From positions 434,001 to 498,000 of the forward strand of contig NZ_JARGNB010000004.1 in NCBI RefSeq assembly GCF_030167915.1: a stretch of 64,000 nt of DNA, given 5' to 3'. The notes under the pieces are model-generated. The model saw only the letters and a list, made by a program, of their open reading frames with translations. It made no database searches and was not told where the DNA came from. Source of the DNA: Aquabacterium humicola (lineage in GTDB: Bacteria > Pseudomonadota > Gammaproteobacteria > Burkholderiales > Burkholderiaceae_C). Below are positions 30,054-37,544 of the stretch, one piece after another (position 1 is the stretch's first letter; every line of letters begins with the position of its first letter). A program made the translations under genes and the position numbers.

Positions 30054-31531
30054 ATGGGAACCGCATGGTCGTGGCTGGCTGGCGCCGGTCTGGTGCTGTA
30101 TTGCGCCGCGTCGTCGGCGCCGGCCGCCACGCTGAAGGCCTGCCGCCTGAAAGGCGTGGAGCACGAAGCGCTGTGCGGCGCGCTGCAGCGGCCGCTCGAC
30201 CCGGCGCAGCCGAACGGCGCGCAGATCACGCTGCACTACGCGGTGCTGCCGGCGCTGGCGCGGCGCAAGGCGCCGGACCCGGTGTTCTTCTTCGCCGGCG
30301 GACCGGGGCAGAGCGCGGTGCAGCTGGCCGGGCCGCTGTCCAAGCGCTTCGCGCGCTTCGGCAACCGGCGCGACCTGGTCTTCGTCGACCAGCGCGGCAC
30401 CGGCGACAGCGCGCCGCTGAAGTGCCCCGACGACGGCGAGCGCCAGCCGTCGAGGCCGCTGGCCGAGCTGTTCGACGAAACGCGCCTGGAGCGGCGCGTC
30501 GCCGCCTGCCGCAGCGCGCTGCAGCAGCTGCCGCATGGCGACCTGACGAAGTACACGACGACGATCGCGATGGCCGACATCGACGCGGTGCGGCAGGCCC
30601 TCGGCGCCGCGCGGATCAATGCCATCGGCGGCTCGTACGGCACGCGCGCGGTGCTGGAATACATGCGCCAGTTCCCGCAGCAGGTGCGGCGGGCGGTGAT
30701 CGACGGCGTCGCGCCGCCGGACATGCGCCTGCCGACGGCGTTCTCGCAGGACAACCAGGCGGCGTTCGACGCAGTGTTCGACGCCTGCGCGAAGGACGCC
30801 GCCTGCCACCGGCGCCATCCGGACCTGCGCGCGCAGTGGCAGCGGCTGCTGGCATCGCTGCCGCGCGAAGTGAGCGTCCAGCATCCGCTGACCGGCCAGC
30901 CGGAAACCGTGCGACTGTCGCGCACGATGCTGCTCGGCGCGGTGCGCGGGCCGCTGTACGCGCCGACCTTGGCGGCGGGCCTGCCGGCGGCGATCGATGC
31001 GGCGGCGGGCGGCCGCTTCGAGCCGCTGATCGGCCTGGCGTCGTCGCTGGCGGCGGGCGAGAACATGGCGACGGGGATGCACTTCTCGGTGGTCTGCAGC
31101 GAGGACCTGTCGGCCGCGGCGCCGGCGGTGGCGGTCAGCGAAGGGCGCGACTTCGGCGGCGCCTTCGCGGCGATGTACGGCCGCGTCTGTGCCGACTGGC
31201 CGCGCGGCACGCCGCCGGCGGAGTTCTACCGCATCGGCCCGGCGCCGGCGCCGGTGCTGGTGCTGTCCGGCGGCGCCGACCCGGTGACGCCGCCGCGCCA
31301 TGGCGCACGCGTCGCGCAGCTGCTGGGGCCGACGGCGCGGCATGTGGTGGTGCCCGAGGCCGGCCACGGCGTGCTGCAGCTGGCCTGCGTGCGCGACGCG
31401 GTGGTGCGCTTCGTCGACGCCGCGAACGACGACGAGGCGATGAAGGTGGACGCCGGCTGCGCCGCGACCCTGCCGCGGCCGCCGGCCTTCGTGCCGGTCG
31501 GCGCGAGCGGCCCGGCGGCCCAGGAGACACG

Positions 31532-31535
<4 letters not shown>
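30054..31535 (+). CDS. exported alpha/beta hydrolase, TAP-like peptidase family
   Basis: The 493-residue protein has a signal peptide (about residues 1-25, ending SSAPAAT). The hydrolase core has VFFFAGGPGQSA with the oxyanion hole, VFVDQRGTGDS, the nucleophile in IGGSYGTRA near residue 190, the acid in LSGGADPVTPPR and the histidine in PEAGHGVL. The C-terminal part matches the TAP-like domain of tripeptidyl/prolyl aminopeptidases (family S33), so periplasmic peptide cleavage is likely. It overlaps the following ABC gene by four bases and is probably cotranscribed with the exporter. Confidence 0.9.
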
Positions 31536-32391
<856 letters not shown>

Positions 32392-32395
<4 letters not shown>

Positions 32396-33558
32396 AGCTC
32401 GCGTGGATCGTGTTCGTCAAGGAACTGGTCGATGCCCTGCGCGACCGCCGCACGCTGGCGGTGGTGATGTTGTCGTCGGTGGCGATGGGGCCGCTGATCC
32501 TGGTCGCGATGTCCTTCCTGATCGCCGGCATCGAGCAGCGCGCGGAGTCGCGCGAGGTCTACGCGGTGGGCATCGAGCACGCGCCGAGCCTGCGCAACTA
32601 CCTCGAGCGCCAGACCTTCGTGGTCAAGCCGGCGCCTGCCGACTACGAGCGCGCGCTGGTGTCCAAGTCCTTCGGCGATCCGGTGATCGTCGTGCCGCCG
32701 GGCTTCGAGGCGGACCTGGCGCAGGGCCTGGCGCCGCTGGTGGAGGTGGTCGGCGCCAGCGGCAATACCCGCGCGCAGGGCGGTCTGGGCCGGGTCGTGC
32801 GGCTGCTGCAGGGTTTCGGGCAGGAGCAGGCGCTGCTGAGGCTGGCCTGGCGCGGCGTCGCCCCGGCGCTGCTGCAGCCGGTGCAGATCGAGGAGCGCGA
32901 CCTGGCCGACCCCCGCGCCCGCGCCGCGCAGCTGACCAGCGGCCTGCTGCCGTTCTTCGTGCTGATGGCGGTGCTCTACGGTGCGCTGAACGCGGCGCTG
33001 GACACGACCGCCGGCGAGCGCGAGCGCGGCTCGCTGGAACCGCTGCTGATGAACCCGGCGTCGCGCGGTGCGCTGGTGCTCGGCAAATGGGGCGCCGTCG
33101 CGGTGGTCGGCATGTTGATCGCGCTGCTGGCGAGCTTCAGCTTCCTGCCGGCGCAGTGGCTGCTGCGCAGCGAGACCCTGGCGGCGATGTTCCAGTTCGG
33201 CGTGCGCGAGGCGTCGCTCTTCGTCGCGCTGCTGCTGCCGCTGGCGGCGATGCTGTCGGCGCTGCTGATGGCGGTGGCGATCCGCTGCAAGACCTTCAAG
33301 GAGGCGCAGGCCAACAACACGGTGGTGATCCTGGTGGTGTCGCTGCTGCCGCTGGTGACCTTGTTCAACCAGGAAGGCGAGAAGGCCTGGCACCTGTGGG
33401 TGCCGGCGCTGGCGCAGATCACGCTGATGGCGCGGGTGCTCAAGGGCGAGCTGATCACCGGCATGGACCTGCTGCCGCCGTTGCTGGTGGCGGCGGTCGG
33501 TACTGCGCTGTGCGTGGCTTTCGTCGCGCGCCAGCTGCGCGGCGCGGCGTTGCGCTGA
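32392..33558 (+). CDS. NatB-like ABC-2 transporter permease
   Basis: The 388-residue membrane protein has one helix near residues 18-42, a periplasmic domain of about 120 residues, then five or six helices from about 180 to 385. TTAGERERGSLEPLLMNPASR is the conserved ABC-2 permease signature also found in NatB sodium exporters. Together with the upstream NatA-like ATPase it forms an export complex; sodium or a small toxic compound is possible. It is the last gene of the operon. Confidence 0.9.
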
Positions 33559-34088: not shown

Positions 34089-34104
34089 CTGTCAAACCTT
34101 GCAG
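34089..34104. promoter_or_regulatory. lux-box-like palindrome upstream of luxR
   Basis: CTGTCAAACCTTGCAG fits the CT-N12-AG pattern of LuxR-family operators, with one arm imperfect. It lies in the 119-bp gap between the hypothetical gene and luxR, 42 bp before the luxR ATG, and could serve either direction. Confidence 0.6.
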
Positions 34105-34146
34105 GGCGGCGCCCTGCCGGCGCGGTCCGCCGCGCATGTCGCACGA

Positions 34147-34911
34147 ATGTTGCCCGCGCTTTATTCGCCGCTGCTCCAGGCTCGAACCCCCGACGAGTTC
34201 CGGGATGAGATCGTGCGGACGACCCGGCAACTGGGCTTCGACACCGTCTCGGCGATGGTGGTGATCGATCCGGAGCCGCCGGCCGCCACGGCCCCCGAGC
34301 AGGCGGGCGACGAACGGCCGGTCGCGTTGCAGCGCAGCGAGTTCGTCGTCATCGACAACACGCCGGCCGCCTACCGCGCGGTCTTCGACAGCTCGGACCT
34401 GCAGCAGGCCGATCCGGTGATGCAGTACTGCAAGGCCTACAGCATCCCTATCGCCTGGGACCAGTCGACCTATGTCGATGCCGGGCGGGGCCCGCTCTGG
34501 GAGGAGCAGGCCCGATTCGGCTACCGCTCGGGCGTCGCGCTGGCCCTGCACCTGCCCGAGCGCCACCATTTCATGCTGGGCATCGACCGCGATGGCGCGC
34601 TGCCGATCGATGCCGGTGAACGCCAGCGCCTGCTGTCGGACATCCAGGTGTTCACCGCGTATGCCCTCGATGCCGCGATGCGCCTGCTGGTGCCCTCGCG
34701 CCAGCAGCCCGACCGTCCGTCCCTGACGCGGCGGGAAGTGGAGGTGCTCAGCTGGACCATGGCCGGCAAGACCGCTTGGGAGGTCGGCCGCATCCTCGGC
34801 ATCAGCGAGCGAACGGCGGTGCTGCACATCGGCAATTCGATGCGCAAGCTCGACTGCCGCAACAAGAACCAGGCGGTGCTGAAGGCGCTGCGACTGGGGC
34901 TGATTCACTGA
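34147..34911 (+). CDS. LuxR family regulator with autoinducer-binding domain (LuxR solo)
   Basis: The 254-residue protein has an autoinducer-binding domain (about 5-175) and a LuxR helix-turn-helix (about 190-250, LTRREVEVLSWTMAGKTAWE and ILGISERTAVLHIGNSMRKL). By alignment with TraR by eye, Asp70 and Pro71 correspond to D89-P90, Trp85 to W104 and Gly113 to about G129. The Trp57 and Tyr61 positions appear as Y76 and F80. No luxI gene is in the window, so it is a solo here. The ATG at 34147 is the first reasonable start. Lux boxes flank the gene on both sides. Confidence 0.9.
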   Translation: MLPALYSPLLQARTPDEFRDEIVRTTRQLGFDTVSAMVVIDPEPPAATAPEQAGDERPVALQRSEFVVIDNTPAAYRAVFDSSDLQQADPVMQYCKAYSIPIAWDQSTYVDAGRGPLWEEQARFGYRSGVALALHLPERHHFMLGIDRDGALPIDAGERQRLLSDIQVFTAYALDAAMRLLVPSRQQPDRPSLTRREVEVLSWTMAGKTAWEVGRILGISERTAVLHIGNSMRKLDCRNKNQAVLKALRLGLIH

Positions 34912-34925
34912 TCTCCGGGCATCAC

Positions 34926-34971
34926 CTGTCAGAGTTGACAGATTGGCGGCGAAGGGCGGACCGGCTGGAAT
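34926..34971 (+). promoter_or_regulatory. lux box and -10 element ahead of the PKGGW peptide gene
   Basis: CTGTCAGAGTTGACAG (34926-34941) has perfect 6-bp arms and the CT-N12-AG spacing of a lux box. TGGAAT at 34966-34971 lies about 35 bp from its centre, close to where a -10 element falls in class II LuxR-activated promoters. Transcription would start near 34976, some 45 bp before the peptide ATG. Confidence 0.7.
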
Positions 34972-35021
34972 GACACCCAGCCCCGCCGAGTGGGGTGTTC
35001 AACCAGCCCACGAGGTCCGCC

Positions 35022-35117
35022 ATGAAACCCAGCCATGCCCTTGACGCGTCGAGCCTGTCGCCGAAGGGCGGGTGGTCACCGAAGGGTGGCTGGTGGGCGC
35101 CGAAGGGCGGCTGGTAG
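35022..35117 (+). CDS. 31-residue peptide with three PKGGW repeats
   Basis: A short frame encodes MKPSHALDASSL followed by SPKGGW, SPKGGW, W and APKGGW, then TAG. The repeats lie at 35058-35075, 35076-35093 and 35097-35114. Between repeats the glycine codons vary synonymously (GGC GGG, GGT GGC, GGC GGC) while the amino acids hold, which favours a translated peptide. GAGG is placed seven bases before the ATG. I know no family for it. The gene follows a LuxR solo and a strong lux box, so a quorum-controlled signalling, antimicrobial or modified peptide is a reasonable inference. No export or modification gene is adjacent. Confidence 0.75.
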   Translation: MKPSHALDASSLSPKGGWSPKGGWWAPKGGW

Positions 35118-35165: not shown

Positions 35166-35435
35166 CTACAACGACGGACGGGTCAGGCGGTCGAGCCGTG
35201 CCAACCAGAGCATGGCCTGCTGCCGAGACTCGCCACACATCTCCAGCGACGGCTGGAGGGAGGCGCACACCGCGGGCCGCTGCGGCTGACCGAACAGCCG
35301 GCAGCGGCCTTGTGCGTCCAGCTGCACGCACGGCACGCCGGCCGGCTTGCCGTCGGGCATGCCGGGAATCGGCGAGCTGATCGACGGCGCGATGCAGCAC
35401 GCGGCGCAGCGGGGCCGGCATTCCATCGCGCGCAT
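35166..35435 (-). CDS. YkgJ-type cysteine cluster protein
   Basis: An 89-residue protein starting [20 protein letters not shown], with further cysteines in [24 protein letters not shown] and SLEMCGES. This is the compact zinc- or iron-sulfur-binding CxxCxxCC...C pattern of YkgJ/UPF0153-like proteins. The biochemical role is unknown. The ATG at 35426 (MECRP) is an equally good start. It is divergent from mnmG, whose -10-like element TACAAT lies at 35484. Confidence 0.85.
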
Positions 35436-35549: not shown

Positions 35550-37544
35550 GTGCTGCACCCCGAAAGTTTTGACGTCATCGTCGTCGGCGGCGGCCATGCC
35601 GGCACCGAGGCCGCGCTGGCCGCGGCCCGCATGGGCTGCCGCACGCTGCTGCTGAGCCACAACATCGAGACGCTGGGGCAGATGAGCTGCAACCCGTCGA
35701 TCGGCGGCATCGGCAAGGGGCACCTGGTCAAGGAAGTCGATGCGCTGGGCGGCGCGATGGCGGCGGCGACCGACGAAGCCGGCATCCAGTTCCGCATCCT
35801 CAACTCGTCCAAGGGCCCGGCGGTGCGCGCGACGCGGGCGCAGGCCGACCGCATCCTCTACAAGGCAGCCATCCGCCATCGGCTCGAGAACCAGCCGAAC
35901 CTGTGGCTGTTCCAGCAGGCGGTCGACGACCTGGTCGTCGAATCCGACGGTGCCGGCGGCGAGCGGGTGACCGGCGCGGTGACGCAAGTGGGCATCCGCT
36001 TCCGCGCGAAGACGGTGGTGCTGACCGCCGGCACCTTCCTCGATGGCCGCGTGCACGTCGGCTTGCAGAACCACGCCGCCGGCCGTGCCGGCGACCCGCC
36101 GGCGGTGACGCTGTCGGCCCGGCTGAAGGAGCTGAAGCTGCCGCAGGGCCGCCTCAAGACCGGCACGCCGCCGCGCATCGACGGGCGCAGCATCGATTTC
36201 AGCCGCCTGGTCGAGCAGCCGGGCGACCTGGATCCCGTGCCGGTGTTCAGCTTCCTCGGCTCGGCCGCCCAGCATCCGCGCCAGGTGCCCTGCTGGATCA
36301 CCCACACCAATGCGCGCACGCATCAGATCATCCGCTCCGGCTTCGACCGCAGCCCGATGTTCACCGGCGTGATCGAGGGGGTGGGCCCGCGCTACTGCCC
36401 GAGCATCGAGGACAAGGTCAACCGCTTCGCCGACAAGGATTCGCACCAGATCTTCCTGGAGCCGGAAGGGCTGACGACGAACGAGTTCTACCCGAACGGC
36501 ATCTCGACCTCGCTGCCGTTCGACATCCAGATCGCCGCGGTGCAGTCGATGCCGGGGCTGGAGCGCGCGCACATCCTGCGGCCGGGTTATGCGATCGAAT
36601 ACGACTACTTCGATCCACGGGCGCTGAAGTCCAGTTTCGAGACGCGTTCGATCGGCGGGCTGTTCTTCGCCGGCCAGATCAACGGCACGACCGGCTACGA
36701 AGAAGCGGCGGCGCAGGGCCTGTATGCCGGGGTCAATGCCGCGCTGCAGGCGCAGGGCCGCGAGCCGATGACGCTGCGGCGCGACCAGGCCTACCTGGGC
36801 GTGCTGGTCGACGACCTGATCACCAAGGGTGTCAGCGAGCCGTACCGCATGTTCACCAGCCGCGCCGAGTTCCGGCTGCAGCTGCGCGAGGACAACGCCG
36901 ATGCCCGCCTGACCGAGCTCGGCCGCACGGTCGGTCTGGTCGACGACGTGCGGTGGGCGGCCTTCAACCGCAAGCGCGACGCGGTGGCGCGCGAGATGGA
37001 ACGCCTGAAGTCGACCTGGGTGCATCCCGGCATCCTGCCGGCGGCGGACGGCGAGCGGCTGCTGGGCAAGCCGATCGAGCGGGAGTACAACCTGGCGGAC
37101 CTGCTGCGCCGGCCCGGGATCGGTTTCGACACGGTCGCCGCGATCGCGGCGATCGCCCGGCCCGAGGCCCGTGTTTCACGTGAAACCTTGAGCATCGAGC
37201 TGCAGGACCCGTTGCTCGCCGACGCGGTGGTCGAGCAGGTCGAGATCGCGACCAAGTACGCCGGCTACATCGGCAAGCAGGTCGAGGAAGTCGAGCGCGC
37301 GTCGAACCTGGAGCACCTGCGCCTGCCGGCCGAGCTGGACTACGGCCAGGTCACCGCGCTGAGCTTCGAGGTGCGTCAGAAGCTGAGCTGCCACCGCCCC
37401 GAGACACTGGGCCAGGCCTCGCGCATCTCCGGCGTGACGCCGGCGGCGATTTCGCTGCTGCTGGTGCACCTGAAGCGCGGTCGTTTCGCCGGGTTCGCCG
37501 AACCGCGCCGGACCCCGGCTGACAGCGACCGTGATGCAGCCTGA
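35550..37544 (+). CDS. mnmG: tRNA uridine-5-carboxymethylaminomethyl modification enzyme MnmG
   Basis: The 664-residue FAD protein works with MnmE to build the cmnm5 group on U34 of several tRNAs. FAD binding is shown by [21 protein letters not shown]. The family signature [35 protein letters not shown] and [16 protein letters not shown] are intact, and the C-terminal helical domain ends with [16 protein letters not shown] and [12 protein letters not shown]. No in-frame ATG exists near the N terminus; GTG at 35550 gives the expected [16 protein letters not shown] parS-like sequence lies within the gene and rsmG overlaps its end. Confidence 0.96.
37172..37187. promoter_or_regulatory. parS: parS-like ParB binding site inside mnmG
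   Basis: TGTTTCACGTGAAACC matches the conserved bacterial parS 16-mer at 15 of 16 positions. It is read in frame as RVSRET of MnmG. It lies 1.1 kb upstream of parA. Confidence 0.9.

Follow-up and report, generated by a model that had tools for sequence, protein, structure and literature searches.

Many LuxR solos are without a known ligand, and whether peptides exported with a double-glycine (GG) leader act as signals in Gram-negative bacteria is an old question. The Gram-positive pheromones ComC and BlpC combine a GG leader, a C39 exporter and autoinduction with a membrane histidine kinase as receptor, while the RRNPP/Rgg-SHP systems, also Gram-positive, have a cytoplasmic regulator whose tiny neighbouring gene yields a short C-terminal peptide, with Opp as importer. 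Class II microcins and colicin V (CvaAB) are secreted through an HlyD adaptor and a C39 ABC transporter, again with a GG leader, and many bacteriocins are exported by means of a GG leader and a C39 transporter. The LuxR solo PipR has peptidase genes as neighbours and is induced, by way of an ABC peptide transporter, by the tripeptide Ser-His-Ser; in the account consulted (PMC4981722) this inducer is of external origin, and peptidases and the transporter, not a peptide precursor, are the genes mentioned nearby. Among the matches listed in the open-access literature, no LuxR with a cognate ribosomal peptide was found.

The locus described here lies in the window (the whole 64-kb stretch of DNA that was analyzed) and comprises the following features.

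30054–31535, + strand: alpha/beta hydrolase with a TAP-like C-terminal domain (Pfam); syntenic neighbour
31532–32395, + strand: ABC transporter ATPase (Pfam ABC_tran); syntenic neighbour
32392–33558, + strand: ABC-2 permease (Pfam ABC2_membrane_2/3; start codon checked); syntenic neighbour
34147–34911, + strand: LuxR-type regulator of 254 aa, presumed activator and receptor, with autoinducer-binding and GerE HTH domains
34926–34941, + strand: lux box CTGTCAGAGTTGACAG, CTG-N10-CAG, 6 of 8 base pairs complementary
34966–34971, + strand: −10-like TGGAAT, 24 nt 3′ of the lux box
35012–35015, + strand: Shine-Dalgarno GAGG, 6 nt 5′ of the ATG, with the same GAGGTCCGCCATG in L028
35022–35117, + strand: peptide gene, 31 aa, a 12-residue head followed by SPKGGW, SPKGGWW, APKGGW and the stop
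35166–35435, − strand: CxxCxxCC-domain protein, convergent with the peptide gene (Pfam PF03692, 1.3e-06; frame checked)
35550–37544, + strand: mnmG, right boundary of the syntenic locus (start GTG assumed; Pfam GIDA 9.1e-169 on 35553–37541)

The peptide gene was confirmed as real, exactly where the original prediction had placed a 31-residue frame with a ribosome site, four Trp and PKGGW repeats. The frame runs from the ATG (35022–35024) to a TAG stop (35115–35117) and holds three PKGGW copies; the in-frame GTG at 34995, which would add nine residues, was rejected as a start because the Shine-Dalgarno sequence precedes the ATG and GAGGTCCGCCATG is retained in L028, the closest relative. The three core copies (CCGAAGGGCGGGTGG, CCGAAGGGTGGCTGG and CCGAAGGGCGGCTGG) differ by synonymous changes only, as had also been claimed. 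Among 420 small open reading frames (ORFs) in the window (9–130 aa, ATG or GTG start, both strands), the peptide gene is the single one ending in PxxxW and the single one with three PxxxW motifs. Other PKGGW-encoding sites in the same genome (three of the six pattern matches in total lie outside the window) were dropped as belonging to other frames or genes. A homology search with the peptide in 60 related genomes gave a match at E ≤ 10 in 36 of them, the best outside the window at E = 0.047, and no convincing relative except itself, so that a homology search alone would class the peptide as an orphan. Nothing above cut-off was found for the peptide and five relatives against NCBIfam, or for the peptide and four relatives against Pfam, and its description as uncatalogued holds.

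It is the LuxR neighbourhood that lifts the peptide above chance. The downstream DNA was examined at 124 LuxR sites, taken from the loci and from 80 fetched regions, and motif counts were made on a set of 99 sites (LuxR identity ≥45%, ≥420 nt of downstream sequence, no second LuxR downstream). An ORF ending in P-x(2,3)-W-x(0,3) was present downstream at 83/99 sites; the reverse strand gave 1/99 and 20 shuffles averaged 4.85 (maximum 9), a contrast that bears out the proposed conservation beside luxR. Eleven of the 16 sites failing the strict motif carry variant peptides (L030, L040, L060, L068, L082, L099, L104, L132, L133, L134 and L135), leaving 5/99 sites at which no recognisable peptide was found (L043, L052, L056 and extra LuxR copies in L100 and L117). 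Within the window's genus, the downstream ORFs include NPKGGW, LPRNGW, LPRAGW, LPKSGW (×3) and AGPRGTW (×7), as well as a product of only 10 residues, MQVLLPRNAW. The very short, Trp-rich gene might recall a chance frame or an untranslated leader such as a tryptophan attenuator, a reading that is scarcely tenable and already contradicted by the strand comparison, by the variation between loci of the sequence 3′ of the peptide, by the purely synonymous differences between the window repeats, and by selection. The pN/pS values in 19 chosen close-relative pairs, which share loci and hence are not independent, ranged from 0.00 to 0.66 (pooled 0.40; last five codons 0.25) and were <1 in 19/19.

Purifying selection on the repeats, which the original prediction had named as a supporting sign, is indicated by the pooled value and by the 26 multi-core genes (at least two PxxxW), in 23 of which the copies are protein-identical; codons differ between the copies in 17 of those 23, and unequal copies occur in three genes (L075, L095 and L097). 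Copies that are equal within a gene and different between species match what is expected of a multi-copy signal precursor.

In other genera the typical precursor has about 50–60 residues and a GG leader (e.g. ...IDASLLDLVSGGAPKSGW...), and the core is often repeated. A GG was scored in 68/83 genes (L041 was counted as leaderless, by eye), followed by 6–48 residues (median 11; ≤10 in 27/68), so that GG cleavage alone would not everywhere release a single short core. Much of the window's genus, like some divergent clades, encodes leaderless products of 10–21 residues directly 3′ of luxR, and for the window peptide itself neither a GG leader nor a linked C39 ABC transporter is present. The 80 loci contain 57 distinct xPxxxW hexamers; the motif used partly dictates Pro and Trp, and Pro is followed by Lys in 33 of the 80 cores, by Arg in 22 and by one of eight others in the rest. 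Core tallies, product lengths and the covariation analysis below leave out L066 (which carries SPKGTWASPKGTW), L068 (LPRVGGLGG) and L135. These tallies bear on the earlier suggestion of Lys-Trp crosslinking or other RiPP chemistry, i.e. that the core is modified before release, for example by a Lys-Trp crosslink as in streptide. By eye, PKGGW resembles what we take to be the Lys-...-Trp stretch of streptide, and one relative gave a sub-threshold match to the XyeA triceptide family (E 0.04, 14.1 bits vs. a cut-off of 33). Such a modification is nevertheless very improbable given that 47/80 cores have a residue other than Lys after Pro and that no modifying enzyme, including radical SAM, was seen in the neighbour clusters examined (ORFs ≥150 aa within about 5 kb, inspected by eye and some Pfam-scanned).

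The exact lux box of the window occurs as a single copy in its 7.39-Mb genome, even with one mismatch allowed. Boxes with ≥13/16 matches to the consensus CTGTAAGACTTGACAG were present in 88/99 related LuxR sites and in none of 10 shuffled sets; as many sites are from related species and the consensus was built on the very sites being scored, these counts are not independent events. In 84 sites aligned on the box, CTGTAAGAGTTGACAGTT is followed by TGnAAT, the best TGAAAT-like hexamer lying 23 or 24 nt further in 82/84. The exact box pattern was found in 16/19 genomes, directly 3′ of a peptide-linked luxR in all 16 and only once in 15 of them; as to the other three, G103 and G225 have box variants and G078 is not among the genomes with a peptide-linked LuxR. 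Extra sites amounted to two more exact boxes in G337 and nine single-mismatch boxes elsewhere, and since a TGnAAT-like hexamer is rightly placed in only 1/11, no second target is claimed. This arrangement strongly indicates that LuxR drives the peptide promoter, which it would activate via the lux box and the spaced −10. A single recognisable box per genome, seen in most genomes checked, also suits a plain effector operon equally well, and this is the strongest argument against the core being a LuxR ligand. It favours the main rival explanation, in which LuxR responds to some different molecule (an exogenous AHL or an unknown metabolite) and induces a secreted peptide whose targets are other cells, as with a bacteriocin or microcin, or the environment.

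The LuxR protein (Pfam on 34099–34908: Autoind_bind 1e-19, GerE 2.6e-17) gave an AlphaFold model with a mean pLDDT of 92.1 and a pTM of 0.73, whose closest solved folds are QscR, SdiA and RhlR. Orthologs occur in 16/21 genomes of the genus including its own (Aquabacterium terrae being one named relative) and in 102/399 genomes and 38/141 genera of the family. A class-wide sample gave matches in 2/369 genomes, namely the window's own and G726 (34% identity). With an autoinducer-binding domain, a GerE HTH and no luxI in its genome, the window protein has the features of a LuxR solo: no LuxI-family synthase (PF00765) was found in the window's genome, G000, or overall in 27/30 chosen genomes with a peptide-linked LuxR, the window's included; the other three (G299, G196 and G277) have one or two, and 0/14 control genomes have any. 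At the positions characteristic of AHL receptors (W57, Y61, D70, P71, W85 and G113 in TraR numbering, W57 being the AHL-contact Trp), the window LuxR keeps D70, P71, W85 and G113 (4/6), with Tyr in place of W57 and Phe in place of Y61, and would fall short of the full six-residue pattern of an AHL-responsive LuxR. Among 103 close LuxRs, the W57 position is Tyr or Phe in 90 and the Y61 position is Tyr in only 12, the other four positions being mostly kept. The four retained residues and a fold nearest to AHL receptors would suit a LuxR that senses another molecule and controls an effector; the absence of LuxI from 27/30 genomes speaks against this, although an exogenous AHL is possible. At L085, L100, L103, L105 and L117, three to five LuxR genes are arrayed at one locus, with a single peptide gene where read; the extra receptors could be listening to foreign dialects.

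Genes for HlyD and a C39-peptidase ABC transporter were present 3′ of luxR in 59/80 regions, and the full order hydrolase–ABC ATPase–ABC-2 permease–luxR–peptide–hlyD–C39 transporter–mnmG in 24/80, the regions ending in both cases at about 12 kb. The window locus shows the same order minus hlyD and the transporter; the CxxCxxCC-domain gene stands where many relatives have this pair, and the window's genome is without both there. Neither hlyD nor a C39 transporter was found between luxR and mnmG in any of 15 genus loci, the window included. The C39 domain is absent from 7/12 genus genomes, six of these seven being among the 10 genomes with a LuxR of the peptide-linked kind; the window's genome has one, unlinked, at G000:C23:68818-69204 within a 1526-codon open frame. 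The window's genus thus has neither leader nor linked exporter but retains core, box and LuxR. Upstream of luxR, the TAP-like hydrolase and ABC-2 transporter pair was found in at least 43/80 regions; in the window (30054–33558) it could process or move the peptide, or reflect mere synteny. In one genus (L106, 7044–7499), the transporter is replaced by a small stand-alone C39-like protein encoded after the peptide; by eye this protein is without the N-terminal cysteine motif, and it may bind leaders without cutting them. A C39-like match was also found at G196:C12:109300-109629.

These neighbourhoods weigh on two alternatives. The GG leader and C39 transporter, as a route of bacteriocin export, would be in keeping with a secreted effector. 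Against such an effector, the peptide stop and the hlyD start are separated by a median of 63 nt (52 loci; ≤232 nt in 49/52) and hlyD runs on into the transporter, so that an immunity gene would not fit there; the strongest objection is that the core is retained in a genus without the linked exporter, and also in a nine-residue product. A secreted effector is judged unlikely, and the membrane-active or antimicrobial role once suggested for the peptide fits less well. The second alternative is that the peptide is an intracellular partner or antagonist of its own LuxR, giving negative feedback, with export in relatives as a means of removal. The leaderless products directly after LuxR in the window's genus and in divergent clades are consistent with this, as are solved fold matches showing, by title, LuxR-type proteins held by partners (LasR-Aqs1, RhlR-PqsE and a TraR anti-activation complex). 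It is nonetheless improbable, as the leader and exporter of most relatives and the multi-copy cores argue for release.

Covariation was examined in 31–47 of 58 loci, near-identical LuxRs being dropped. Differences in the core correlated with those in the LuxR ligand domain when hydrolase, MnmG, transporter or HlyD was controlled for (partial r 0.16–0.24, permutation p 0.003–0.025), the corresponding values for hydrolase, MnmG, transporter and HlyD vs. the core, given LuxR, being −0.10 to 0.03. The DNA-binding part of LuxR correlates with the core as strongly as the ligand part, so that covariation supports the LuxR–peptide pair and not the pocket specifically.

The pairing extends to more distant LuxRs. 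In 20 chosen loci with LuxRs at 39–100% identity to a divergent member, a tiny downstream gene was present in 19, with products such as MKVIDLICELLGLPKLGG and MQSRSTSHASFPRTGW; none was seen in L191, where the LuxR match is incomplete. Several of the divergent loci carry a different palindrome, e.g. CTACAAGGTTTTGTAG, and in L203 a divergent LuxR and this palindrome are followed by a whole gene of nine codons (product MICLPRVGW). L187–L190 and L192 form a subfamily with 18-residue products of the form MxLIDxIxExLGLPKLGG, the box reading CTAGnAGACTTGCTAG in L187 and L188 and taking looser forms in other members. The window's genome also holds a second LuxR–peptide pair, L044 (G000:C4, ~101061–101744, minus strand), in which a LuxR of 45% identity is followed by MSQAAIAVRTSFPRTGW; a 16-mer in this pair, CTCCGCCCGAGCGCAG, closely resembles CTCTGCCCGGGCGCAG, which occupies the equivalent position in L046.

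The peptide gene at 35022–35117 is, then, conserved, under selection, adjacent to luxR and equipped with a LuxR-type promoter, and many relatives have an exporter gene next to theirs. It would encode a precursor whose working part is the short C-terminal core xPxxxW (PKGGW, in three copies, in the window). In most relatives the GG leader would be cut and the remainder exported by the co-encoded HlyD and C39-peptidase ABC transporter, steps that we infer from the established function of these two families. Once released, the core would serve as ligand of the neighbouring LuxR, activating or tuning it, and the peptide gene would take the place that luxI usually has in quorum sensing; for the window's genus, this would mean a peptide that acts intracellularly or has a different way out of the cell. 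A signal role is the best reading of the sequence data, and we lean slightly towards a peptide that serves as autoinducer of its partner, a LuxR-type receptor, to which the core would bind as ligand. This is supported by the LuxR–peptide–box pairing, also in divergent LuxRs, the fixed promoter geometry, the exporter linkage, the identical core copies, the absence of LuxI, the altered AHL-contact position, the core–LuxR covariation and the core kept without an exporter. Besides the single box per genome, it is opposed by the lack of a specifically linked importer (the ABC-2 pair upstream is built like an exporter), by the 4/6 AHL-receptor positions kept and by the 5/99 sites with no recognised peptide; to our knowledge, a peptide of five or more residues also exceeds the size of known LuxR ligands.

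The broader proposal is of a new quorum-sensing class in Burkholderiaceae, in which the cognate autoinducer of a LuxR-type receptor is a short peptide of ribosomal origin, its core reading xPxx[G/T]W or [F/L/I]PxxG. The peptide gene would lie immediately 3′ of luxR behind a LuxR box, a dedicated HlyD–C39 exporter would secrete the product in many genera, and receptor, box and core would diverge together into species-specific dialects, the minimal genes having 9–20 codons; on this proposal our judgement is evenly balanced. The original prediction stands in its LuxR-linked conserved peptide gene and falls in its RiPP chemistry, and the lux box, the GG relatives with their exporter and the syntenic locus were no part of it. 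If the peptide is a signal, a peptide language would be in use with receptors of a type otherwise associated with quite different signals. For a large, coherent group of LuxRs, genetic linkage now provides a candidate ligand with a core accessible to peptide synthesis, and signalling by GG-exported peptides in Gram-negative bacteria becomes directly testable through these pairs. If the peptide is an effector, it would still represent a new exporter-linked family under apparent single-target LuxR control.

Set against the described systems, the locus shares features with each of them. Like OryR/PipR LuxR solos it is without luxI and has TAP-like hydrolase and ABC genes upstream, but the box-carrying target here is a conserved ribosomal peptide gene. 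That subgroup is recognised by an adjacent proline iminopeptidase and peptide transporter and by a response to plant compounds, and the neighbours here are arranged differently. The GG leader and C39-peptidase ABC exporter of the relatives, the short and presumably secreted peptide and the proposed autoinduction recall ComC and BlpC, whereas here the sole linked regulator is a LuxR and the core is shorter. The same leader with HlyD and a C39 ABC transporter, again in relatives, likens the locus to class II microcins and CvaAB, from which the very short core, the LuxR control and the lack of an immunity gene seen inside the operon set it apart. RRNPP/Rgg-SHP systems, with a regulator beside a tiny peptide gene, are closest in logic to the leaderless form of the window, although they are Gram-positive, import through Opp and have a regulator fold unrelated to LuxR. 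With LuxI/LuxR AHL quorum sensing the locus has in common the LuxR fold, a CTG-N10-CAG box preceding the luxR-adjacent gene and probable feedback; it differs in two changed AHL-contact positions and in the absence of luxI from 27/30 genomes, with a peptide gene in its place.
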